From NCBI GenBank assembly GCA_017503645.1, contig JAFVSR010000012.1:1-39826 (forward strand): a DNA stretch of 39,826 nucleotides. Direction: 5' to 3'. Both the position numbers and the translations under genes were made by a program. Below are positions 478 through 39,705 of the stretch, in pieces (within the stretch, counting starts at the first letter, position 1; each line of letters starts with the position of its first letter). Source of the stretch: Bacteroidaceae bacterium (GTDB lineage Bacteria > Bacteroidota > Bacteroidia > Bacteroidales > Bacteroidaceae). The notes below the pieces were generated by a model, which was given only the letters and a program-made list of their open reading frames with translations, made no database searches and had not been told where the DNA came from.

Positions 478-879
478 ATGAATAGGAAGATACTGGAACT
501 GGTCAACAATAGGGAATTCCAAAATCTGACTGACTATTATGGAAAGCGAACTGTTTTTGAAACACTGAAGGTGGAACGCAAGGAGAACCGCCATAGTGCA
601 TTCATCGCATGGTGGCTGAATCCAAAGGCCGAGCACGGCCTGAACGATGCCCCCCTGAAATTGTTGTTGCGCCTGTTTGCAACCAAGGATATGGGGCATT
701 ACATCTTTGACAGTTCTGTCTATGCCAAGGTTCTTGCAGGAAACTACAACGTGGAACTTATGGACGGCGGTATAGAGGTGGAAAAGTGCGTGAAGTTCTG
801 GAGAAAGAATGATTTCGAGTCTTTGGCAGAATGGGTAAGTAAAAATTATAAGTTCATTGACGTGCAGAAGTGTCTGTAA
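478..879 (+). CDS. Truncated PD-(D/E)XK (PDDEXK_4-like) family protein, N-terminal part only
   Basis: This 133-aa ORF matches by eye the N-terminal part of the complete nuclease-like protein at 2132-3319. The segment FETLKVERKENRHSAFIAWW then LNPKAEHGLNDAPL aligns with FDVLRISRTEIRHSNMLGWL then LDPNENHGLGDSFL. PDDEXK_4-like proteins carry this helical N-terminal region before a D...ExK nuclease core. Here the similarity fades after about residue 105 (GGIEVEKCV). The remaining 28 residues show no HIDILL or IENK-type core, so the catalytic part is missing. The most likely reading is a decayed or deletion-truncated paralogue; a small non-catalytic derivative is possible. The 134 bases after it, up to the next start, hold no convincing gene. 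Confidence 0.55.
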   Translation: MNRKILELVNNREFQNLTDYYGKRTVFETLKVERKENRHSAFIAWWLNPKAEHGLNDAPLKLLLRLFATKDMGHYIFDSSVYAKVLAGNYNVELMDGGIEVEKCVKFWRKNDFESLAEWVSKNYKFIDVQKCL

Positions 880-2131: not shown

Positions 2132-3319
2132 ATGAATAATATAACCAACGCAACAAGTCCAAAGGGCAAAGACAATTACGACAAGGAGTGTCTTTTGAAG
2201 TTCATGCAGGATGCAGATTGCCTTGAAAGTCTTTCAAGATGGACAAGTGAACTCAACATGTTTGATGTATTGAGGATTTCTCGCACAGAGATACGCCATA
2301 GCAATATGTTAGGTTGGCTTCTTGACCCCAATGAAAACCATGGGTTGGGAGACTCGTTCCTTTATGGGGTTATATCTAAAGTCTCGCATGACATGGGTAC
2401 TGACAATGCTCTCCAGTTTTTGAGTTCAGATTTGTACTCTTTCAATGTTCGTCGCGAATGGAATCATATAGATATACTGCTGGTTTCAAACCAGTGCAAA
2501 CTTGTACTGGCCATTGAAAACAAGGTTGGTTCGCACGAGCACAACTCCAATGGAACAAGCGTATCGCAATTGCGTACATACAAAGACGTGCTTCAATCCC
2601 AATTCAAGGACTATACGAAGGCATTTGTCTATCTGACTCCGGATGGAGATAATCCCTCTGATGATGATTGGATGGTGTTGGATTATTCGGATGTTCTCAC
2701 TGTCTTGGAGAATGTCTACAAATCCAAGAGTTGTTATTTATCCGGGGAGTCATCTCTGCTAATCAAAAATTATATCAATAACATTAAGAAAAATGTAATT
2801 ATGGATGAGGAATTGGTTAACCTTTGTAATTCTATTTACAACAAGCATCGCAAAGCGTTGGATCTCATTTTTGAGAATCGTGATGATATCACTTCACAAG
2901 TTTCCAATAACTGTATAAGAATACTCCGTGAGACAAAGGGGGTGTTTCTTGACGACTCTTCAAGAAGCAAGGTGTATGTAAAGTTCAGGACGGATGGATT
3001 GAAAAACCATTTCAAGGACATAGATTTCAGTTACTACTATTACCAATTTGAAATCAGGGCCGACCAGATTATTCTTATGCTTGAATTCCACAAGGAGAGA
3101 AACGAAGAACTGGACGATGAAATCTCCGATAAGATGGAACGGGCAAAGTCGCTTTTCGGTGTAGGCAAGAAGAAACTTAAGAAAGACTGGAGATGGAACA
3201 GGGTTTGGACAAAAAGGACACATGATCTGAATAACGAAGGATGGATAATTGAGGTGCTAAAATTCATCTGCGAGAGAGATGGCACTCATAAACTTCTGGA
3301 GAGTGAACTGACGGAGTAG
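2132..3319 (+). CDS. PD-(D/E)XK nuclease superfamily protein (PDDEXK_4-like)
   Basis: This 395-aa protein has a helical N-terminal region (residues about 30-85, with FDVLRISRTEIRHSNMLGWL and NENHGLGDSF). A nuclease-like core follows: Asp114 in HIDILLV, then Glu129 and Lys131 in LAIENKVG, then Gln and Tyr in the SQLRTYKDVL helix. The D...ExK plus QxxxY pattern is typical of PD-(D/E)XK enzymes of the PF14281 type, which are common in bacterial accessory and defence loci. The C-terminal 200 residues (WRWNRVWTKRTHD and around) are probably a specificity or DNA-binding part. The gene is visibly more AT-rich than the metabolic genes further on and lies beside a truncated relative at 478, both signs of an accessory island. 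It ends before a strong terminator hairpin at 3372-3414. Nuclease activity and substrate are inferred from family only. Confidence 0.75.
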   Translation: MNNITNATSPKGKDNYDKECLLKFMQDADCLESLSRWTSELNMFDVLRISRTEIRHSNMLGWLLDPNENHGLGDSFLYGVISKVSHDMGTDNALQFLSSDLYSFNVRREWNHIDILLVSNQCKLVLAIENKVGSHEHNSNGTSVSQLRTYKDVLQSQFKDYTKAFVYLTPDGDNPSDDDWMVLDYSDVLTVLENVYKSKSCYLSGESSLLIKNYINNIKKNVIMDEELVNLCNSIYNKHRKALDLIFENRDDITSQVSNNCIRILRETKGVFLDDSSRSKVYVKFRTDGLKNHFKDIDFSYYYYQFEIRADQIILMLEFHKERNEELDDEISDKMERAKSLFGVGKKKLKKDWRWNRVWTKRTHDLNNEGWIIEVLKFICERDGTHKLLESELTE

Positions 3320-3491: not shown

Positions 3492-3905
3492 ATGGCATTC
3501 AAATTTGACTTCGGTTATTTTTACACAGTGGAGAAACCAACAAACCGGCGCCGTTTCAAGTACGAGAAGTGGTGGTATTTTGTATTAAATGAGCGCAACG
3601 GCAACGAGGTTGCGTTCAGCAACAAGCACGAGGAACCTTTGGTAAGGTATCGCGGCAAGGTGCTCACAAACCCAAAGACCGGCGACGAGATTTGCTTTCT
3701 CACAATAAATGGTGCAAAGTATATGCTCGAAGCCAAGAACGGGCACAGTGAGGGGCGCCGGCTTACCGACCACGACCTCGACAACCTCGTTGTTGATGTT
3801 GAATGGAGCGACAGCAAGGGCAAGTTTGTCAAAAGCAAGCACGAGGGCGTTACACTAAGGGAGTTCTTCAAGAAAAAGGCAGAGGAAAGGCTTAAAAAAG
3901 ATTGA
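3492..3905 (+). CDS. Hypothetical protein, 137 aa, first gene of the sigma-like/AAA+ cluster
   Basis: A soluble basic protein of 137 residues with no signal peptide or membrane segment. The N-terminal 80 residues are rich in aromatic and beta-forming residues (FKFDFGYFYTVEK, KWWYFVLNERNGNEVAFSNK, GDEICFLTINGAKYMLEAKN). The C-terminus is a charged helix (LREFFKKKAEERLKKD). I do not recognise a family. It has its own promoter-like element at 3437-3468, of the same kind as the AAA+ gene at 5146, and the sigma-like gene starts 53 bases downstream. This makes a shared role with those two genes plausible but unproven. Confidence 0.65.
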   Translation: MAFKFDFGYFYTVEKPTNRRRFKYEKWWYFVLNERNGNEVAFSNKHEEPLVRYRGKVLTNPKTGDEICFLTINGAKYMLEAKNGHSEGRRLTDHDLDNLVVDVEWSDSKGKFVKSKHEGVTLREFFKKKAEERLKKD

Positions 3906-3958: not shown

Positions 3959-4936
3959 ATGAGACAACTTAAAATAACAAAAAGCAGGGGCGCTTCCGAT
4001 ATCATTGAGTGCCTTAAAGACGATAATTTCAACCTCGATGAGTTTATAAAAAGGATTCCCGAGGAAGAGTCGTTGATTAGTTGCGAAGAGGGCTCCCTGT
4101 TAGATGATATACAGCAAGGACCACGGCCCGGGGGGCGCATACCGTTATCGGAACCGGAAAATCAGCAGGACATTAGTTATGAGGAGATGCTTGCCGACCA
4201 TTATGAGACTTGCTGTGAGACGAACGAGTTGCGTTGGCTCTCTGCCCGTAGGGTGCTGTCCATAGCACTTGAGTATGAAAACAGCGGCAAGCCTATGCAG
4301 CAACTGCTCCTTGCCGCTATGCAGGGAGTGAAAAACGCCGCATTGGCATATAATTTCAACCCCAAGATAATTTTCATCGATTTTGCCGCGCCAATCATAC
4401 GCAGGCACATTGAGCAGTATATACAATATGGCGAATCTTCTTTTGCGCTGCTTTACAGGGAATACAAGGAGATTCTCGATAATGCCAAGCTGGCATATGA
4501 CAACTATTGCAACCCCGTATGCAATGTGGCTGCATATTCCGCGCAGCCTGAAAAGGCGAGGGAGCATCTGTTTGCAAACGCAAAGATAAGCCGTTGCCGC
4601 AAGGAGATAAGAATGGCTGCCGATTATGCGGAGTGGAGGCTGGTTGATATTGCCGTTCACCTGCCCGATGACTATGACGAGCGCGACAAGTTTATACGCA
4701 CCGCCTCTTTTACGTTGCACGATGCTCTCTACAGCGGCGAGTGCAAGGACTTTGTGAAGCCTGTGGGCGGCGAGTGGAGCGTATGTACAGCCAATGGCGT
4801 GCGTGTGCCTGTGGGTGAACTCACCGACAGGGGTTCAATGCGTAATGCCCTGGAGGCTCTGCTGGGTGTTCTCGAAAAAAATCCCCTAACAAGGACTTTG
4901 GGCTTTAGCGAGTGGCGTGCCGATACAGGGGTATAA
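3959..4936 (+). CDS. Degenerate RpoD-like sigma-70 family protein lacking region 4
   Basis: This 325-aa protein begins with MRQLKITKS, which as I recall is the N-terminus of the primary sigma factor RpoD of Bacteroidales. Residues about 33-54 (IPEEESLISCEEGSLLDDIQ) resemble region 1.2 (IGREDLITVEEEVELAQRI). Residues about 92-158 resemble region 2: LRW...VLSIALEYENSGKPMQQL, then QGVKNAALAYNFNP, then FIDFAAPIIRRHIEQYI, against LRFVVSVAKQYQNQGLSLPDL...GLIKAAEKFDET...FISYAVWWIRQSILQAL. The aromatic residues of region 2.3-2.4 that melt the -10 element are largely lost. Near the end, LTDRGSMRNALEALLGVLEK resembles the stretch before region 4, but the helix-turn-helix that reads the -33 element is absent. 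It may bind core RNA polymerase as a decoy, anti-sigma or adaptor, or be a non-functional paralogue. The resemblance is by eye from memory of the family; no alignment was computed. Confidence 0.6.
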   Translation: MRQLKITKSRGASDIIECLKDDNFNLDEFIKRIPEEESLISCEEGSLLDDIQQGPRPGGRIPLSEPENQQDISYEEMLADHYETCCETNELRWLSARRVLSIALEYENSGKPMQQLLLAAMQGVKNAALAYNFNPKIIFIDFAAPIIRRHIEQYIQYGESSFALLYREYKEILDNAKLAYDNYCNPVCNVAAYSAQPEKAREHLFANAKISRCRKEIRMAADYAEWRLVDIAVHLPDDYDERDKFIRTASFTLHDALYSGECKDFVKPVGGEWSVCTANGVRVPVGELTDRGSMRNALEALLGVLEKNPLTRTLGFSEWRADTGV

Positions 4937-5145: not shown

Positions 5146-6795
5146 ATGGAAAAGAAGAAAATTGCAAAAGAGGAGCCCACACTGCTGCAGGCTATTGAGA
5201 AAATCATTGCACACACCGAGGATTCAAAACTCGACAAAAAGATTCTGAGCAAGATAAAACCATACAGCAGTTTCCTTGCCAAGAGCTATGGCATTACTGA
5301 GTTGCAGGCAATACTTTTCAGCATCAGCCTTCAGCTGGGCCCCAGGCGCGTGGAACTTAATGACATTGCACGCTTCTTGGATATTGGCAAGATACGTATC
5401 CTCAGTTATGCCGATGAAATTGACGCTCTTATAAGCCGCCGTCTCTTGCGCTACCACAATGCAAAGGAGCAGGAGGAGTTTCATGTAAATTCAGTCGTCA
5501 TTAAGGCGCTTAAACATAATGAGGTGTACCGGGCACCGCGCCGTACCGGGCTCGACTGTGTACAACTTTTCGAGCAGTTTGATATACTGTTCGACGAGCT
5601 CGATGACAACGCAGTGAGCGTGCCCGACTTTATCGGCTGCATAAAACAGCTGCTTGACGACAATGGCAACGTGCGTTTTGTGCAGGAGGTTAAGAGGCTG
5701 AGGCTTGAACCTGAAGAATTGCTGTTGTTGCTCTTCTTCTGCCATATGCTTGTGAACAAGGACGATGACGATATAAGGTTCGATCAAATAGAGGACATCA
5801 CCGATTCAAAGGCACAGTTCAACCGTTTCAAGGCCGAATTGCGCAGCGGCAAGCACGCCCTTATGCAGGCGGGGCTCATAGAGCATCTTTGCGTGAATGG
5901 CATTGCCGACACTACACGCTTCAAGCTCACAGAGGAGGCCAAGAGAAACCTTCTCTCTGAGATGAACATAACGGCTGTGGAGGAGGGGGGTGCCGACCTG
6001 TTGCAGCACACCGACATTACCCCAAAAGAGCTTTTTTACCCCACCGATATCGAGGCCCGTATATCGGACCTTGCAACCTTCTTCGTCCCCGAGAAGTATG
6101 CCGAGATTCGCGAGCGTATGCAGCAGCGCGGCTTCCGCCAGGGCTTTGCCTGCCTTTTCTATGGCGGGCCCGGAACGGGAAAAACCGAGACAGTTTATCA
6201 GCTTGCCAGGTACACCGGGCGCGACATTATGGTAGTGGATGTGCCGCAAATAAAGAGCAAGTGGGTGGGCGACAGCGAGAAGAATATAAAGGCGCTCTTC
6301 GACCGTTATCGCGAAGTGTCCAAGCGTTGCACATTGGCACCCATCTTGCTTTTTAACGAGGCCGATGCCATTATAGGCACACGCAAGAACGGTGCCACCA
6401 ATGCAGTTGACAAAATGGAGAACTCGATACAGAACATCATTCTGCAGGAGATGGAGACACTCGACGGTATAATGATAGCAACCACAAACCTGCAAGAGAA
6501 CCTCGACCCCGCATTCGAGCGCCGTTTCCTCTACAAGATAAAGTTTGAGAAGCCCGATGCCGCGGTTCGTGCCAAAATATGGCAGCAGATGATTCCCGAA
6601 CTTAGCGAGAGCGATGCTGCAACACTTGCCGCGAGCCACGACCTCAGTGGTGGGCAGATAGAAAACATTGCACGTAAACACGCTATAAATTGTGTGCTCC
6701 ACGGAAACGAGGCCTCTACATTGAACTCGCTTCTTCAGGACTGCGCTTGCGAGAAACTCAACAACAAGGAACAGCACAGGAGGGTGGGGTTTTAA
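5146..6795 (+). CDS. AAA+ ATPase, Bacteroidota-type, with N-terminal helical/winged-helix-like region
   Basis: ATG 5146 (MEKKKIAKEEP) is chosen over the longer open frame from 5080 because the promoter-like element lies at 5094-5125. The 549-aa protein has an N-terminal half of about 300 residues rich in helices and winged-helix-like segments (ELNDIARFLDIGKIRILSYA, ALISRRLLRY), then one AAA+ module. Walker A is GGPGTGKT at 340-347. Walker B is ILLFNEADAI with Asn404-Glu405 in place of the usual Asp-Glu. A sensor-1-like ATTN segment follows, with an arginine finger in ERRF around 458-461. The family is probably a remodelling ATPase working as a ring. Asn in Walker B may be normal for this clade, with the Glu still able to catalyse. 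It sits behind the sigma-like gene, and a remodelling role on that protein or on RNA polymerase is only an inference. Confidence 0.75.
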   Translation: MEKKKIAKEEPTLLQAIEKIIAHTEDSKLDKKILSKIKPYSSFLAKSYGITELQAILFSISLQLGPRRVELNDIARFLDIGKIRILSYADEIDALISRRLLRYHNAKEQEEFHVNSVVIKALKHNEVYRAPRRTGLDCVQLFEQFDILFDELDDNAVSVPDFIGCIKQLLDDNGNVRFVQEVKRLRLEPEELLLLLFFCHMLVNKDDDDIRFDQIEDITDSKAQFNRFKAELRSGKHALMQAGLIEHLCVNGIADTTRFKLTEEAKRNLLSEMNITAVEEGGADLLQHTDITPKELFYPTDIEARISDLATFFVPEKYAEIRERMQQRGFRQGFACLFYGGPGTGKTETVYQLARYTGRDIMVVDVPQIKSKWVGDSEKNIKALFDRYREVSKRCTLAPILLFNEADAIIGTRKNGATNAVDKMENSIQNIILQEMETLDGIMIATTNLQENLDPAFERRFLYKIKFEKPDAAVRAKIWQQMIPELSESDAATLAASHDLSGGQIENIARKHAINCVLHGNEASTLNSLLQDCACEKLNNKEQHRRVGF

Positions 6796-26330: not shown

Positions 26331-28847
26331 TTATTTACTGCCCTTGAAGTATGAACCCAATGATAGCAACCAGGCCACAATAATGCTCACAGCCATACCT
26401 ATGGCTCCGTAGAGCAGGAAGTTGGCATCGGTGTATTCGCTCACTAAGAATACCACTACCTCGCCCGCCACAAAACCGGCAAGTGCTGCGTAGCCCTTAA
26501 CGCGTTTCATAAACACGGCAATGAAGAACAAACCTCCCAATCCGCTGGTGAGCAGTCCCAAAACCTCGTTAAAGAAATCGAGGAACGACTGTATATCCCA
26601 CGTTGCCATAAGCAGGGCAAGTACAAGACCTATCATACCGCTCACTACCGAGCCCCAACGTGCCACCACCACAAGCTGCGAATCGGTGGTGGATGTGCGG
26701 AAACGCTTCCAGAAATCTATGGAGAATGCCGTGGCCACACTGTTTATGTTGCTCGATATTGTACTCATTGTGGCTGCGAATATTGCGGCTATGAGTGCTC
26801 CGGCAATGCCGGCAGGCATTTGGCTCATCATAAAGAATGGGAAGATAGCGTCGGATTGTCCCATTGTGATATCAAGCTCTGCAGGGTGTGTTTTGTAGAA
26901 TGTGTAGAGGCCGGTACCTATCATATAAAAGGCCACCGACACAAACACACTCATCACGCCGTTTACCAATATACCACGGCCGGCTGCCTTTTCGTCAGAT
27001 GTGGTGAGGTAACGCTGTATCACCGTTTGGTCAGATGTGTATGAAATAAGGTTATTTGCCAAACCGCCGAGAATGATAACCCACCAGGTGGCCTGCGACC
27101 AGGTATTGTTGAGGTTGAACAGTTGGAACTTGTCGTTTTCCAAAGCAATGTCTATGCAACCGCCAATGCCCCCCTCGGTGCTCATTGCCAAATATATAAC
27201 TGCAAATATCGCTCCAAAGACAAGTATAAGACCTTGAATAACGTCGCCCCAGATAACGGCCTCCACACCACCCATCGTGCAGTAGATGATGGTAGCCAAT
27301 CCCATAAGCACTATGCACAGGTATATGTCTATGCCTGTAACGGCTGTTAGTGCCAACGAGGGCAGGTAGAGCACAATGGCCATACGCACAATCATAAATA
27401 TGCAGAAGAGCGTAGATGCCAACATTCGTGTGAACAGGTTGAAGCGCTGCTCCAATATCTCGTAGGCACTGGTTACATTAAGTTTGCGGAAGTATGGCAG
27501 ATAGTACTTTATAACGGGGAAACTCACGAGCAGTATCATCCACAGCATTGGGTAGTAGGTCCAGTCGGTGGTATATGCCTTAGCGGGTATTGTCATATAG
27601 GTGATGGCCGAGAGCATAGTGGCATAGATACTTATTCCGGCTGCCCACCAGGGTATGCGGCCGCCGCCCTTGAAGAAGTCGTCGGCGCTGTTCTCCTTGC
27701 GCATAAAGTATATACCCATACCCAGCATTGCAGCAAGGTAAAGTACCAATATTGTCCAGTTTAGCCAACCGAAACTCTTGTCGTTGGTTACCTCTACGTG
27801 GGTTACGTCGGCACTGCGCACTCCGGGCATCAATTCGCCACCGCTGTAGCTCCAGCCTTTTCCACCCACCTCGGCTGTGAGGCAGGCGCCGGCACGGGCC
27901 AGCAGGCTGTTGCCGGGCAGGAAGCCCCACGAGTCGGTAACGGTGTGGTATATGAGAACATCCTCGCGGAAGCGATACCAATCGGGCTTGTGTCGCAGGT
28001 ATAGGCTGTCCTGTTGCCCGCTGATGGCACTGTGGAAGATGTCGTAATCCACACCGCCAAAGAACAGCACGTGGCTGTAGCCCGTGGTGCTACAGGTGCT
28101 GCCCACCACGGCTTGGCGTTGTTGCACTCGCTTGCCGTCGGCGGCATTGTCTATCCACGCCAATGTAGGTGATGTGCGTTTCCATTGCGCGGTTGTCGTG
28201 CCGCCCTTCTTCAGTTCTGCAATAGGAATATAAACACCATCGGTGTGCACTACGGCCTCTTGTCCCTCACTCTTTGGCTGGTATCCGCCAAAAACAAAGA
28301 GGGCATAACCTGTGGCGGTGTTCTGTGCCGCTACGCAGGGCTGCAAACGACAGGCATCGGGCAGGGTGGCGACAACGCTCCACTCCTTACCGTCGCAAGG
28401 GAATGGCAGGGCATAGACATCGGTGTTGGGCACACCGTTGCTTTGTCCGCCGGCTACCCATATTGTGCCGTCGTAGTATGTGGCTGCAAAGTTATCAAGG
28501 CCCTTGGGTAACGATGCTATGGTGGTTTCTATGCCATCTGCGGCATTTATGAATGTGCACCCGTTGAGTGAGCCCGCATTGTCCATTCCGCCAATATAGA
28601 CCACGCCGCCGGGTACTTGTACACTCGCTCCGTAGGCGCAGGGGTAATATACCTTCTCGCCACCGTCGGCACAAGGAACGTCGGGGAAATTGCAACCTCC
28701 GTAGGTGGCAAGTTCACCCTTTATCCATCCTGCATAGTGGCCCGAAACGGCTCTATCCAGGGGCGTGGCAGGCTGCACCGTAACTCGGTTCTGTGCTATG
28801 CCTATCATAGAGCAGAATAGCAGCAATAGTAATAGATGTTTTTTCAT
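26331..28847 (-). CDS. Kelch-type mutarotase (NanM-like) fused to SSS-family sodium/solute symporter
   Basis: The 838-aa protein joins two functions. After a signal peptide (MKKHLLLLLLFCSMIGIAQN), residues about 20-365 form Kelch-like blades (VVYIGGMDNAGSLNG, TIWVAGGQSNGVPNTDVYAL, ALFVFGGYQPKS, HVLFFGGVDYD, WSYSGGELMPG). This pattern is that of cyclically permuted mutarotases such as sialic acid mutarotase NanM. From about 370 on there are some 13 membrane helices of the SSS family, with WWAAGISIYATMLSAITYMT and TSDQTVIQRYLTT as typical parts. The first part should lie in the periplasm. The fusion would convert the sugar anomer and import it with sodium. It is third in an operon with nanA and an epimerase, so the substrate is probably N-acetylneuraminate. 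The gap to the epimerase gene is 34 bases. Confidence 0.85.
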   Translation of the reverse strand: MKKHLLLLLLFCSMIGIAQNRVTVQPATPLDRAVSGHYAGWIKGELATYGGCNFPDVPCADGGEKVYYPCAYGASVQVPGGVVYIGGMDNAGSLNGCTFINAADGIETTIASLPKGLDNFAATYYDGTIWVAGGQSNGVPNTDVYALPFPCDGKEWSVVATLPDACRLQPCVAAQNTATGYALFVFGGYQPKSEGQEAVVHTDGVYIPIAELKKGGTTTAQWKRTSPTLAWIDNAADGKRVQQRQAVVGSTCSTTGYSHVLFFGGVDYDIFHSAISGQQDSLYLRHKPDWYRFREDVLIYHTVTDSWGFLPGNSLLARAGACLTAEVGGKGWSYSGGELMPGVRSADVTHVEVTNDKSFGWLNWTILVLYLAAMLGMGIYFMRKENSADDFFKGGGRIPWWAAGISIYATMLSAITYMTIPAKAYTTDWTYYPMLWMILLVSFPVIKYYLPYFRKLNVTSAYEILEQRFNLFTRMLASTLFCIFMIVRMAIVLYLPSLALTAVTGIDIYLCIVLMGLATIIYCTMGGVEAVIWGDVIQGLILVFGAIFAVIYLAMSTEGGIGGCIDIALENDKFQLFNLNNTWSQATWWVIILGGLANNLISYTSDQTVIQRYLTTSDEKAAGRGILVNGVMSVFVSVAFYMIGTGLYTFYKTHPAELDITMGQSDAIFPFFMMSQMPAGIAGALIAAIFAATMSTISSNINSVATAFSIDFWKRFRTSTTDSQLVVVARWGSVVSGMIGLVLALLMATWDIQSFLDFFNEVLGLLTSGLGGLFFIAVFMKRVKGYAALAGFVAGEVVVFLVSEYTDANFLLYGAIGMAVSIIVAWLLSLGSYFKGSK

Positions 28848-35052: not shown

Positions 35053-35083
35053 TTGAACCGATAATTTTTTTGTTTATTTTTGC
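35053..35083 (+). promoter_or_regulatory. hsdR promoter
   Basis: TTG (35053-35055) and TATTTTTGC (35075-35083) are 19 bases apart, about 23 bases before ATG 35106. It should drive the type I restriction-modification locus. Confidence 0.55.
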
Positions 35084-35105
35084 ATTTAGCACGTTTTTAT
35101 ACACA

Positions 35106-37931
35106 ATGGTTGATATGACAGCACAGAGTGAAGCAGCATTGGAAAATGGTCTGATAAGGACACTACAAAATATGAGTTATGAATATGTTGTGATTAAAGA
35201 AGAAAGCAATTTGATTGAGAACTTCAAATTACAACTGGAAAAGCATAACCAAAAAGAACTTTCAAAATACAACCGTTCACAGTTTACCGATAAGGAGTTT
35301 GAGAAAATCCTCATTCATCTTGAGGGTGGCACACGCTTTGACAAAGCGAAGAAACTTCGCGACCTTTATCCTCTTGACACCGAGGATGGAGAACGCATTT
35401 GGGTGGAGTTCCTTAATCGTAGCCAATGGTGTAAAAACGAATTTCAGGTAGCAAATCAAATTACCATTGAAGGACGCAAGAAGTGCCGGTATGATGTTAC
35501 CATTCTTATCAATGGATTACCATTAGTGCAAATAGAACTAAAGAAGAGAGGTGTTGAACTGAAACAAGCATACCAACAAATTCAGCGTTATCACAAGACA
35601 TCATACCACGGACTATTTGACTACATCCAAATTTTTGTAGTCTCTAACGGTGTGAATACACGTTACTTTGCTAACAATCCCAATCAAGGTTACAAATTCA
35701 CATTCAACTGGACAGATGCAGCTAACACACCATACAATGACCTAAGCCTGTTTGCCAATGAGTTTTTTGACAAATGCACTCTTGGCAAATTGATAAGCAA
35801 ATACATTGTAATGCACGAGGGCGATAAATGCCTTATGGTGTTGCGACCATATCAATTCTATGCCGTTGAAAAGATACTTGACCGTGTACAAAACACCAAT
35901 AAGGACGGATATATTTGGCACACAACCGGTGCTGGCAAAACACTGACATCATTCAAGGCTGCTCAATTGGTGTCTGAAATAGACGGAATAGACAAAGTTA
36001 TGTTTGTTGTTGACCGCCACGACCTTGATACTCAAACACAATCGGAATACGAAGCGTTTGAACCGGGTGCTGTAGATAATACCGACAATACATCGGAACT
36101 TATCAAACGCTTGAATGGAAATAGTAAAATCATAATCACTACAATACAGAAACTCAACACAGCTGTATCAAAGGATTATTATAGCAATAAACTTTTGGCT
36201 GTTAGAGACAAACGGATTGTTATGATTTTTGACGAGTGTCACCGAAGTCATTTCGGCGACAGCCATAAGAATATTATGAAGTTTTTTACTAACACTCAAA
36301 TATTCGGCTTCACCGGCACTCCGATATTCGTTGAAAATTCAATCGACGGGCACACTACCAAAGAAATCTTTGGCGACTGTTTGCATAAGTATCTTATAAA
36401 AGATGCTATTGCCGACGAAAACGTACTTGGTTTCTTGGTGGAATATTATACAGGCAATGTAACAGCTGAATATGACGATGAGGGCAGAATGACAGAAATT
36501 GCCCAGTTTATACTCAACAACTTCAATAAATCGACATTCGATGGAGAGTATGATGCTCTTTTCGCAGTACAATCTGTTCCTATGCTGATAAAATACTATA
36601 AGATATTCAAGAGTCTTAATCCTCAAATAAAGATTAGTGCAGTATTCACCTATGGGCAAAACACGAATCAGGATGATGCATATACGGGTATGAACAGAGG
36701 GTTTGAGAATGAAAGCGTTCAAGCCGATGAATTGCAAGCCATAATGGATGATTACAATAAAATGTATGGCACAGCATTTACCACAGAGAATTTCAGTGCT
36801 TATTACGATGATATAAATCTTCGTATGAAGAAGAAAAAGCCCGAAATGAAACCTCTTGACCTTTGTCTTGTGGTAGGTATGTTCTTGACTGGGTTTGACT
36901 CTAAAAAGTTGAATACGCTTTATGTTGATAAGAAACTTGAATATCACGGGCTGTTGCAAGCATTCAGCCGCACCAATCGTGTGCTTAACGAAAAGAAACG
37001 CTTTGGAAAAATCGTCTGTTTCCGCAACCTAAAGGACAATGTCGATAACTCAATTAAGCTATTCAGTAATAACTGCCCTTCGGAAGATATTCTGCGTGAG
37101 CCTTTCGACAAAGTAAAAAAAGAACTTAATGACCTCGCGATTGCATTCTTAAAGAAATATCCAAAACCACAATTCGTAGATACGCTTCAAAGCGAATACG
37201 ACAAGCGCGATTTTGTTTTAGTATTCCGCGACCTTATAAAAAAACAGGCTGAAATTCAAATTTACGAGGAATACGACCCTAACGATTCAAGCCTTTACAT
37301 GTCCGAGCAGGAATTTAATGATTTCAAGAGCAAATATCTTGATATTGCATTGGGTGTCGTAACGCTGGACCAAGCAAATAGTATGGTGGCTGAATCTGGG
37401 GCACCATATGGAGAAACACAAAAACTCGAAGATATTGATTTCTGCCTTGAATTACTTCACAGTGATGTTATTAATGTGGCATATATCCTTGCACTCATAG
37501 CCGACCTTAATCCGTCAAGTGATGATTACGAGGAAAAACGCAGGAACATCATTGACACAATGATTAAAGACGCCGAAATGCGTAATAAGGCGAAGCTGAT
37601 TGACGGCTTCATTCAGCAGAATGTGGACGATGATAAAGAAAACTTTGAACGTGCAAAGGCAGACGGGTCAATGGATTTGGAGGCAAGACTCAATTCCTAT
37701 GTAAAAGAAAAACGAGAAAAAGCAATAAAAGACCTCGCTGAAACCGAACATATACCGGTAGCGGTGCTTGCACGCTATTTGGCCGAATATGATTACCTGC
37801 AAAAGCACAAGTCTGAAATAATTCAAGAGGCTATTGCCGAGCAGCATCTTGGTCTTATAAAAACAAGGAAGGCTATAAAACGAGTGACCGAACAATTGAT
37901 GTTTATTATTAATACATTCTCTTGGGAATGA
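35106..37931 (+). CDS. hsdR: Type I restriction endonuclease, HsdR subunit
   Basis: ATG 35106 (MVDMTAQSEAALENGL) gives 941 aa; ATG 35115 is also possible. The open frame upstream lies in the promoter. HsdR cuts DNA after ATP-driven translocation in the HsdRMS complex. The nuclease part has KCRYDVTILINGLPLVQIEL with Asp and Glu-Leu-Lys near residue 142. The SF2 helicase has TGAGKTLTSFKAA near 274, the DEAH-like box IFDECHRSHFGD near 375, GFTGTPIF near 400, and FLTGFDSKKLNTLYVDK with QAFSRTNRVL later on. The C-terminal helical part should bind HsdM. Codon use and AT content differ from umuDC, so it was probably acquired. hsdM follows after 217 bases with repeats. Confidence 0.94.
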   Translation: MVDMTAQSEAALENGLIRTLQNMSYEYVVIKEESNLIENFKLQLEKHNQKELSKYNRSQFTDKEFEKILIHLEGGTRFDKAKKLRDLYPLDTEDGERIWVEFLNRSQWCKNEFQVANQITIEGRKKCRYDVTILINGLPLVQIELKKRGVELKQAYQQIQRYHKTSYHGLFDYIQIFVVSNGVNTRYFANNPNQGYKFTFNWTDAANTPYNDLSLFANEFFDKCTLGKLISKYIVMHEGDKCLMVLRPYQFYAVEKILDRVQNTNKDGYIWHTTGAGKTLTSFKAAQLVSEIDGIDKVMFVVDRHDLDTQTQSEYEAFEPGAVDNTDNTSELIKRLNGNSKIIITTIQKLNTAVSKDYYSNKLLAVRDKRIVMIFDECHRSHFGDSHKNIMKFFTNTQIFGFTGTPIFVENSIDGHTTKEIFGDCLHKYLIKDAIADENVLGFLVEYYTGNVTAEYDDEGRMTEIAQFILNNFNKSTFDGEYDALFAVQSVPMLIKYYKIFKSLNPQIKISAVFTYGQNTNQDDAYTGMNRGFENESVQADELQAIMDDYNKMYGTAFTTENFSAYYDDINLRMKKKKPEMKPLDLCLVVGMFLTGFDSKKLNTLYVDKKLEYHGLLQAFSRTNRVLNEKKRFGKIVCFRNLKDNVDNSIKLFSNNCPSEDILREPFDKVKKELNDLAIAFLKKYPKPQFVDTLQSEYDKRDFVLVFRDLIKKQAEIQIYEEYDPNDSSLYMSEQEFNDFKSKYLDIALGVVTLDQANSMVAESGAPYGETQKLEDIDFCLELLHSDVINVAYILALIADLNPSSDDYEEKRRNIIDTMIKDAEMRNKAKLIDGFIQQNVDDDKENFERAKADGSMDLEARLNSYVKEKREKAIKDLAETEHIPVAVLARYLAEYDYLQKHKSEIIQEAIAEQHLGLIKTRKAIKRVTEQLMFIINTFSWE

Positions 37932-38148: not shown

Positions 38149-39705
38149 ATGAGCGAAGAACTTCAGCAAAAACTGCGTAACCAACTTTGGACTGTTGCAA
38201 ACACATTGAGAGGAAATATGTCTGCCGGTGAATTTATGTACTTTTCACTTGGCTTCATCTTCTATAAATATCTGTCGGAGAAAATAGAGCATTTTGCAGA
38301 CACAGCTCTTGTCGATGATGAAATAACATTCAAGGAACTTTGGAAAGTTGCCGATGACGAAGATTATCTTGAACTCCAGGAAGCTGTGAAAACACAGTGT
38401 CTTGAATCTATCGGTTATTTCATTGAACCTGAATTTCTGTTCTCTTCGGTCATTGCTTTAATCAAGAAGAAAGAGACTATTCTCCCTGTTCTCGAACGTT
38501 CATTAAAACGTATCGAGGACAGTACATTGGGACAGGACAGCGAAGAGGACTTTGGCGGTCTCTTCTCAGATATTGACCTTGCCTCGCCTAAACTAGGTAG
38601 AACAACTGATGACAAGAATACACTAATCAGCAATGTTCTTCTTGCCCTTGATGAAATCGACTTTGGTGTAGATGCAACACAGGAAATTGATATTCTTGGC
38701 GATGCATACGAGTATATGATTAGCCAATTTGCAGCTGGTGCTGGAAAGAAAGCCGGTGAGTTCTATACACCTCAGGAGGTGAGTCAAATTCTTGCTGATA
38801 TTGTAACTACAGGCAAGACACGCTTGCGTAATGTATATGACCCCACTTGCGGCAGTGGATCATTGCTTATTCGTGCTGCACGCAATGGCAAAGCTGAAGA
38901 CATTTACGGACAGGAAAAGAACCCGACAACATTCAATCTCTGTCGTATGAATATGTTGCTTCACGGTATCAAATTCCACAACTTCCGCATTGAGAATAAC
39001 GACACTCTTGAACACGATGAATTTGGCGACACGCAATTCGATGCTGTGATTGCTAACCCACCATTCTCTGCCGAGTGGAGTGCAGATGCAAAATTCAATA
39101 ATGATGACCGTTTCAGCAAAGCCGGAAAACTTGCACCAAAGAGCAAAGCCGACTATGCGTTTATTCTTCACATGGTTCACCACCTTAATGAAGGTGGTAC
39201 AATGGCTTGTGTTGCACCTCACGGAGTGCTGTTCCGTGGCTCTGCCGAAGGTACAATTCGTCAATTCCTTATTGAAAAGAAAAACTATATTGATGCAATC
39301 ATCGGTTTGCCTGCAAACATCTTCTATGGCACATCAATCCCGACTTGTATTCTTGTCCTGAAAAAATGCCGTCAGGCTGATGACAATATCCTGTTTATCG
39401 ATGCAAGCAAAGAGTTCGAGAAGGTAAAGACTCAAAACAAGCTCCGCCCCGAACATATTGAAAAAATCGTTACCACATATCGCGAGCGTAAAGAAATTGA
39501 GAAATATAGCCACTGTGCTACTCTTGATGAAATCAAGGAGAATGACTACAATTTGAATATTCCTAGATATGTTGATACATTTGAAGAGGAAGAGGAAATC
39601 GACATCAAAGCAGTGATGGCAGACATCAAAACACTTGAAGCACAGCGTGCCGAACTTGATGCTCAAATAGAAGTTTACTTAAAAGAGTTAGGATTAGTTG
39701 ACTAA
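38149..39705 (+). CDS. hsdM: Type I restriction-modification system, HsdM methyltransferase subunit
   Basis: The 518-aa enzyme methylates adenine at N6 within the HsdS-defined site. Residues 1-140 are the HsdM_N helical domain with NQLWTVANTLRGNMSAGEFM and YFSLGFIFYKYLSEKIEHFA. The N6_Mtase domain has GEFYTPQEVSQILADIV, the SAM-binding motif I DPTCGSGSLLI from residue 231, and the catalytic motif IV NPPF near 303. The C-terminus is a coiled coil. The order hsdR, hsdM here differs from the E. coli hsdRMS order only in the spacing; the specificity gene hsdS is not seen in this window and may be just downstream. The gene is AT-rich like hsdR. Confidence 0.95.
   Translation: MSEELQQKLRNQLWTVANTLRGNMSAGEFMYFSLGFIFYKYLSEKIEHFADTALVDDEITFKELWKVADDEDYLELQEAVKTQCLESIGYFIEPEFLFSSVIALIKKKETILPVLERSLKRIEDSTLGQDSEEDFGGLFSDIDLASPKLGRTTDDKNTLISNVLLALDEIDFGVDATQEIDILGDAYEYMISQFAAGAGKKAGEFYTPQEVSQILADIVTTGKTRLRNVYDPTCGSGSLLIRAARNGKAEDIYGQEKNPTTFNLCRMNMLLHGIKFHNFRIENNDTLEHDEFGDTQFDAVIANPPFSAEWSADAKFNNDDRFSKAGKLAPKSKADYAFILHMVHHLNEGGTMACVAPHGVLFRGSAEGTIRQFLIEKKNYIDAIIGLPANIFYGTSIPTCILVLKKCRQADDNILFIDASKEFEKVKTQNKLRPEHIEKIVTTYRERKEIEKYSHCATLDEIKENDYNLNIPRYVDTFEEEEEIDIKAVMADIKTLEAQRAELDAQIEVYLKELGLVD

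Follow-up and report, generated by a model that had tools for sequence, protein, structure and literature searches.

The question raised by this locus is what a protein does that begins as the sigma factor RpoD of Bacteroidales begins, has no detectable region 4 and continues instead into a second domain. The window (the whole 39,826-nucleotide stretch of DNA that was analysed) is one whole contig (G000:C101) of a Bacteroidaceae assembly of 2.33 Mb that is 86% complete, and the named relatives that carry the gene are Bacteroidaceae MAGs recovered from sheep (rectum) and goat (colon). The fusion gene and the features within and around it are listed in Table 1. As set out below, the product is not an ordinary sigma factor.

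Table 1. Coordinates of the fusion gene, its parts, its neighbours and one related fusion (positions are those of the window unless a locus is given).
Feature	Position	Strand	Description
PD-(D/E)XK nuclease-family gene	2132..3319	+	Pfam PDDEXK_4, E 2.2e-27; PADLOC candidate PDC-S26, E 3.8e-108
Partner gene A	3492..3905	+	137 aa; 53 bp between its end and the fusion gene
Fusion gene	3959..4936	+	Degenerate RpoD-derived sigma part (residues 1-158), linker and C-terminal domain (CTD); 325 aa; ATG start
RpoD-like tag MRQLKITKS	3959..3985	+	Residues 1-9
Region 1.2-like stretch	4031..4123	+	Residues about 25-55; alignment to RpoD and hhalign
Insertion between regions 1.2 and 2	4124..4213	+	Residues about 56-85, ~30 residues; alignment
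Degenerate sigma region 2	4214..4429	+	Residues about 86-157; dyad and most clamp-helix contact residues replaced
CTD	4571..4885	+	Residues about 205-309; rare separate domain
AAA+ ATPase	5146..6795	+	549 aa from ATG at 5146; Pfam AAA; PADLOC IetA, E 4.1e-33
G087 NT5C-sigma fusion	L040:1457-2230	-	

Full-length copies of the fusion are present in 4 of the 44 genomes of the genus (G000, G013, G030 and G017), and the proteins from the last three are 96%, 77% and 66% identical, respectively, to that of the window. Whole-gene dN/dS was 0.22-0.27 in all six orthologue pairs, a sign of purifying selection, and because these values are low across pairs the fusion gene is a functional protein gene, on an orthologue set of four that all come from one genus. 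Over the same number of pairs dN/dS was 0.15-0.25 for the CTD and 0.14-0.50 for region 2, with the value of 0.50 belonging to the nearest pair, in which there are few changes; for the insertion it was 0.00, 0.47 and 0.74 in three pairs and could not be computed in the other three. An antisense ORF (4145-4720, minus strand) was taken as a shadow since selection, which was computed for the plus frame, fits that frame. It is hardly credible that the gene is a decaying duplicate of rpoD or a chance ORF. The many changes relative to RpoD would be in keeping with decay, as would the finding of no rpoD in the window's 86% complete assembly, but the four orthologues are intact down to the most distant of them, their dN/dS is low, and the sister genome G013 has rpoD as well as the fusion gene. 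A chance ORF or pseudogene was rejected on the strength of the four orthologues and their dN/dS. An origin as a phage or plasmid gene was also rejected: tblastn searches of phage and plasmid collections gave no match to the fusion protein at E <= 0.01, a single-protein search of viral contigs gave no match, and a profile search of those contigs returned one weak locus (L081; 33%, residues 1-155).

The descent of the N-terminal part is settled by profile comparison. An earlier note on this DNA had described region 1.2-like and region 2-like stretches and had suggested a profile search for a sigma-70 region 2 match as the check. Alignment by hhalign of the four orthologues with eight RpoD sequences and four other sigma factors (12 in all) gave 98.2% with an E-value of 3.4e-14 over residues 1-158, while the best of 100 column shuffles reached 6.5%, and both stretches are thereby confirmed. 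A PDB search with the four-row profile returned sigma factors as its top 19 matches and as 20 of the 24 listed, with a best E-value of only 0.0092. Single sequences were weak queries: Pfam returned no family for the fusion protein at E <= 1, two NCBIfam sigma models matched at E 0.018 and 0.027, and the PDB gave one sigma chain at E 0.88, the NCBIfam and PDB matches all being below significance. Sigma homology is nevertheless far above chance, and from these alignments residues 1-158 are judged to descend from a Bacteroidales RpoD-like sigma factor.

Beyond residue 158 the alignment to RpoD stops, and no Pfam family for region 3 or 4 was found at E <= 1, so the proposal that the whole helix-turn-helix of region 4 has been lost stands. 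The long insertion, placed by the earlier note at residues 55-90, was recovered with somewhat narrower bounds. Its description of a changed middle was correct in that the middle is altered, and incomplete in that part of the middle and the whole C-terminus from about residue 205 are a different domain. The protein thus resembles Bacteroidales RpoD, a group 1 sigma-70 factor, in its N-terminal start and in regions 1.2 and 2, and differs from it in lacking detectable regions 3 and 4, in the replacement of key residues, in some 30 inserted residues and in the added CTD.

How far this degenerate family extends was examined with a profile of the sigma part, which matched 72 of 393 genomes of the order at E <= 1e-6, the window's own included. 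The open frames that hold the matches other than the window are 191-352 aa long, and all 29 of the other loci fetched (L089-L117) are sigma factors with a WW dyad. No degenerate sigma family was seen outside Bacteroidaceae among the 393 genomes at E <= 1e-6 with only the best matches scored, a scan in which a weak degenerate copy may hide because RpoD itself matches and only 29 other loci were fetched. In a tree built from the sigma segment, the fusions (all four) and sequences from G326, G262 and G246 are set apart from RpoD and from the intact rows that consist of region 2 only, with support of 93/95, which lies below the tool's own starred level and comes with a long-branch warning; the grouping is a hint only.

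The earlier note had recognised the first residues of the protein as the exact start of Bacteroidales RpoD. The genus bears this out: all 29 rpoD loci fetched begin MRQLKITKSITNRESAS, and since they were fetched by the MRQLKI pattern, the independent check consists of the residues after MRQLKI only. MRQLKITK is identical in all four orthologues, the ninth residue being S in three and T in G030, and the G017 orthologue continues past the start as MRQLKITKSITNRGAS. At the DNA level the MRQLKI pattern has 44 matches in 39 of the 44 genus genomes, compared with one match for a reversed control pattern. Six of the 44 are members of the gene family (the four fusions and one CTD gene each in G005 and G061), and of the remaining 38, the 29 that were retrieved are all RpoD starts, one of which (L056) is cut before region 2. 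That MRQLKI is simply a common gene start was rejected within the genus. Beyond the genus the motif is common and not invariant, with 19 of the 29 sigma loci fetched at the level of the order beginning in this way.

Members of the gene family spell the tag with different codons (Leu as CTT or TTG, Ile as ATA or ATC, Arg as AGA or CGA), and three distinct sequences stand upstream of its ATG. Two further stretches can be compared directly: L022:5310-6023 and L005:756-1469 share 94% DNA identity over 714 nt, and the identity ends 24 nt inside the tag-bearing gene, at codon 8. Behind the shared stretch, G030 has a sigma-CTD fusion and G005 a CTD protein, and the DNA of the two is unrelated. From this comparison the gene body appears to have been swapped just behind the RpoD-like tag, and because the identity between G030 and G005 stops at codon 8, the tag may mark the swap point.

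Does the sigma part still have the surfaces with which a sigma factor works? Positions are given here in E. coli sigma70 numbering, anchored on the WW dyad at 433/434. The four orthologues have P at 433, I or V at 434 and I or V at 425, with F kept at 427 and a conservative F at 430; these five positions serve promoter melting according to the accounts in PMC6411747 and PMC2613000, the former of which also describes ECF sigma factors as having no tryptophan dyad. The suggestion that the aromatic residues of regions 2.3-2.4 have been lost therefore holds for the dyad and for 425 and fails for 427 and 430. Unchanged in the fusions are 387 V, 404 L, 411 G, 415 A, 427 F, 431 A, 435 I and 436 R. 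Sigma factors of 234-239 aa in L045 (G170) and L046 (G330) have, by eye, region 4 and an SEGN motif and no WW dyad, with P-I at 433/434 in G170 and V-Y in G330, and are possible intermediates. Since the 239-aa sigma factor of G170 has P-I and yet, by eye, a region 4, loss of the dyad alone is not proof of lost sigma function.

The residues that contact the core polymerase are a second such surface. Residues D77, E81, I84 and M87 of sigma32 are reported in PMC10216364 at the interface with the beta' clamp helices, and they correspond to 403, 407, 410 and 413 of sigma70 when H107 of that paper is equated with W433 and an ungapped offset is applied, as was done in this analysis. All eight RpoD rows read D/E/L/I at these positions. 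The four orthologues have E, E, K and Q at 403 and, without exception, A/Q/K at 407/410/413, which makes three of the four positions non-conservatively changed in all orthologues and 403 changed in this way in two. Two standalone degenerate relatives read E/V/A/K. In the four intact rows that consist of region 2 only, too, 407 is A, and 410 is D or E. The idea that the protein keeps the core-polymerase-binding face is thus not supported. As judged from the alignment, the changes weaken the case for core binding and stop short of excluding it, because those intact relatives deviate from RpoD at 407 and 410 as well.

The protein may act as a decoy or adaptor through its tag, through region 1.2 or by contacts of a new kind. 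The specific proposal, put forward in the earlier note, that the protein is a polymerase adaptor or sigma competitor, which would still bind core through the tag, region 1.2 or a remodelled region 2 and would block or modify the holoenzyme, is in our estimation clearly unlikely. Although the RpoD start in every orthologue, the region 1.2 stretch that aligns to RpoD, a residue near RpoD's D at 403 in two of the four and the A at 407 found also in intact relatives are what such an adaptor might have, the uniform replacement of the RpoD residues at 407, 410 and 413, including hydrophobic residue to lysine, and the similarly altered residues of the two standalone degenerate relatives argue against it.

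It is very improbable that the protein is one half of a split sigma factor, supplying region 2 while another protein supplies region 4. Split sigma factors have precedents, such as RsoA/SigO of Bacillus subtilis as summarised in PMC8103513, and RsoA, like the window protein, has a sigma region 2 and no region 4. Proteins that consist of region 2 with an intact dyad also occur in the family (G003, G028 and G172). However, RsoA together with SigO starts transcription, whereas in the window protein the dyad, 425 and most clamp-helix contacts are replaced and a CTD is added, and no region 4 was found among six window neighbours scanned with Pfam. The small sigma factors at L008:1390-1710, L009 near 1390 and L044:1435-1785 are 106-116 aa long, end after region 2 and keep WW, and the small sigma gene of G003 adjoins a REase-ARP family gene.

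As for the CTD, no family of Pfam or PHROGs and no credible PDB chain matches it, and its identification as a sigma region 4 was rejected, as the Pfam and PDB searches give no support. By profile it occurs in 7 of the 44 genus genomes and in 5 of 301 sampled family genomes. The fusion is one of separable parts: free-standing relatives of the CTD are encoded in G012 and G262, at another locus of G017 and at two places each in G005 and G061, and G326 has a CTD gene that follows a standalone degenerate sigma gene at a distance of 0.3 kb, so that the CTD occurs without a fused sigma part in six genomes. The CTD genes of G005 and G061 that keep MRQLKI have no sigma body, and the sigma bundle is therefore dispensable in some versions. 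In nine of the ten CTD loci, G326 being the exception, gene A precedes the CTD on the same strand; its model was built from six of the nine, and the other three (L021, L032 and L037) were found by the model. It has no Pfam or PHROGs match, and among the 393 order genomes, in which the family is thinly represented, only the window's own copy was found.

These observations bear on the possibility, which we consider somewhat unlikely, that an old scaffold has been reused with no link to transcription, the bundle acting as an oligomerisation or solubility domain of a two-gene accessory module made up of the CTD and gene A. The alteration of functional positions of region 2 while several core positions are kept would agree with this, as would the six CTD loci, out of ten, that have no sigma part fused to the CTD. 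For a pure scaffold, however, there would be no need to keep MRQLKITK through synonymous change and in three upstream contexts.

The reading that we prefer, tentatively and at a little less than an even chance, is that the fusion protein is an RpoD-derived sigma mimic, i.e., an interaction module that is joined to the CTD and acts with gene A. The sigma fold would be kept, and the RpoD-like tag and the helical bundle would together offer a surface either to a protein that normally sees RpoD, be it a regulator or a foreign RpoD-binding protein, or to the product of gene A. The CTD, perhaps an effector or a sensor, would carry the output. The reading is built on the sigma descent, the replaced dyad and core-contact residues, the joining of two parts that are found separately elsewhere, the conserved tag and gene A, and the purifying selection. 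Against it speak the CTD genes of G005 and G061 that have MRQLKI and no sigma body, the chance that the tag persists for some other reason, e.g., as a point of recombination, the P-I of the G170 sigma factor at the dyad, and an orthologue set of only four from a single genus. The sigma mimic known to us, PhyR, is built on an ECF sigma factor and serves, by analogy, as the precedent for this proposal. Its sigma-like domain has degenerate promoter and core contacts and titrates an anti-sigma factor, as outlined in PMC8103513, and PhyR and the window protein are alike in that a degenerate sigma domain is fused to a second domain. They differ in that PhyR combines an ECF-like domain with a receiver and has NepR as its target, whereas the window protein combines an RpoD-derived part with a rare CTD. 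Pfam found no receiver domain in the fusion protein at E <= 1, and the neighbouring gene A has no Pfam match. A literature search, with most subscription journals outside its scope, found nothing on a truncated sigma factor in connection with Bacteroides and RpoD, or on the peptide MRQLKIT.

The fusion is not the only truncated RpoD-like protein in these genomes. The standalone relatives of G326 and G262 both pass the Pfam cut-off for Sigma70_r1_2 (25.6 vs 22 bits for G326), while region 2 of the G326 protein falls below its cut-off (13.0 vs 24 bits); this protein also matches the phage-family sigma model PHROG 351 (E 2.4e-10). As a pair, the two gave 98.3% to the window profile and 98.8% to the RpoD profile. 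Upstream of the standalone sigma gene in G326 and G262 is a gene for a protein of 277-282 aa (L049:496-1329 and L041:495-1343) that has no Pfam family above cut-off and ends RKLVITKSVT(E/G)RREQ, like the start of RpoD, and in G326 one in-frame stop lies between this gene and the sigma ORF. A protein of G087 combines an intact RpoD-like region 1.2-2 with an NT5C-type 5'-nucleotidase domain (NT5C E 2.4e-16, sigma region 2 E 1.1e-14). Its gene is flanked by one of the uracil-DNA glycosylase superfamily and by a DUF2971 gene that weakly matches PDC-S31.

The neighbourhood of the fusion gene raises the further possibility of a link to defence. The nuclease in L022 also matches PDC-S26 (E 7.9e-26), and an IetA-like ATPase lies downstream in three of the four fusion loci (the window, L021 and L022), with none seen in L004; the neighbour of the copy in G017 is a SprT-like gene. 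The nuclease and the ATPase are neighbours, and their membership of the module is putative. When ten neighbours of sigma-like and CTD genes were compared with PADLOC, four matched at E <= 0.001, BrxD marginally (8.4e-4), and six did not, whereas none of ten other window genes matched at that threshold; the scanned neighbours were chosen by hand, the PDC families have candidate status, and the similarity to AAA+ models is in part generic. A defence role for the module is suggestive only. A sigma-type domain in a defence setting has been described in MzaA of the Mza defence system, which is called a sigma factor in PMC9523054. The PADLOC model of MzaA matches G087's intact fusion of HAD and sigma domains (1.5e-19) and, with a weak score, the standalone protein of G326 (5e-4), both through the sigma part; unlike these, the window fusion protein matches no PADLOC family, MzaA included, at E <= 0.1.

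Elsewhere in the window, a short ORF at 478-879 (plus strand) covers positions 3-58 of the 183 of the PDDEXK_4 profile and is perhaps the remnant of a second nuclease. By eye, the ORFs at 35070-37931 and 38149-39705, near the contig end, look like the restriction (HsdR-like) and modification (HsdM-like) subunits of a type I system. An ORF of 838 aa at 26331-28847 (minus strand) looks, again by eye, like a fusion of a kelch-type mutarotase and a sodium:solute symporter, and it adjoins epimerase-like and lyase-like ORFs, as if for the use of sialic acid.

A bolder reading, which we regard as decidedly improbable, is an integrated RpoD decoy, in which the N-terminal part of the host's RpoD, copied and disarmed, would serve as bait for foreign proteins that seize RpoD, and binding would switch on the attached domain. 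Its carriers would be accessory proteins, perhaps with an anti-phage role. This would fit the presence of an RpoD start on a diverged protein in which both working surfaces are changed, the proximity of the PDC-S26 nuclease and of the IetA-like ATPase, and the fact that an RpoD-like region 1.2-2 turns up again fused to a quite different domain, the nucleotidase of G087.

Bacteroidaceae thus have a set of truncated RpoD-like proteins that are standalone, fused to a nucleotidase or fused to the CTD. If the sigma mimic that we favour is correct, the window protein would be one based on RpoD and joined to another domain, under selection and within a small accessory module, and it would widen the range of uses to which sigma domains are put.
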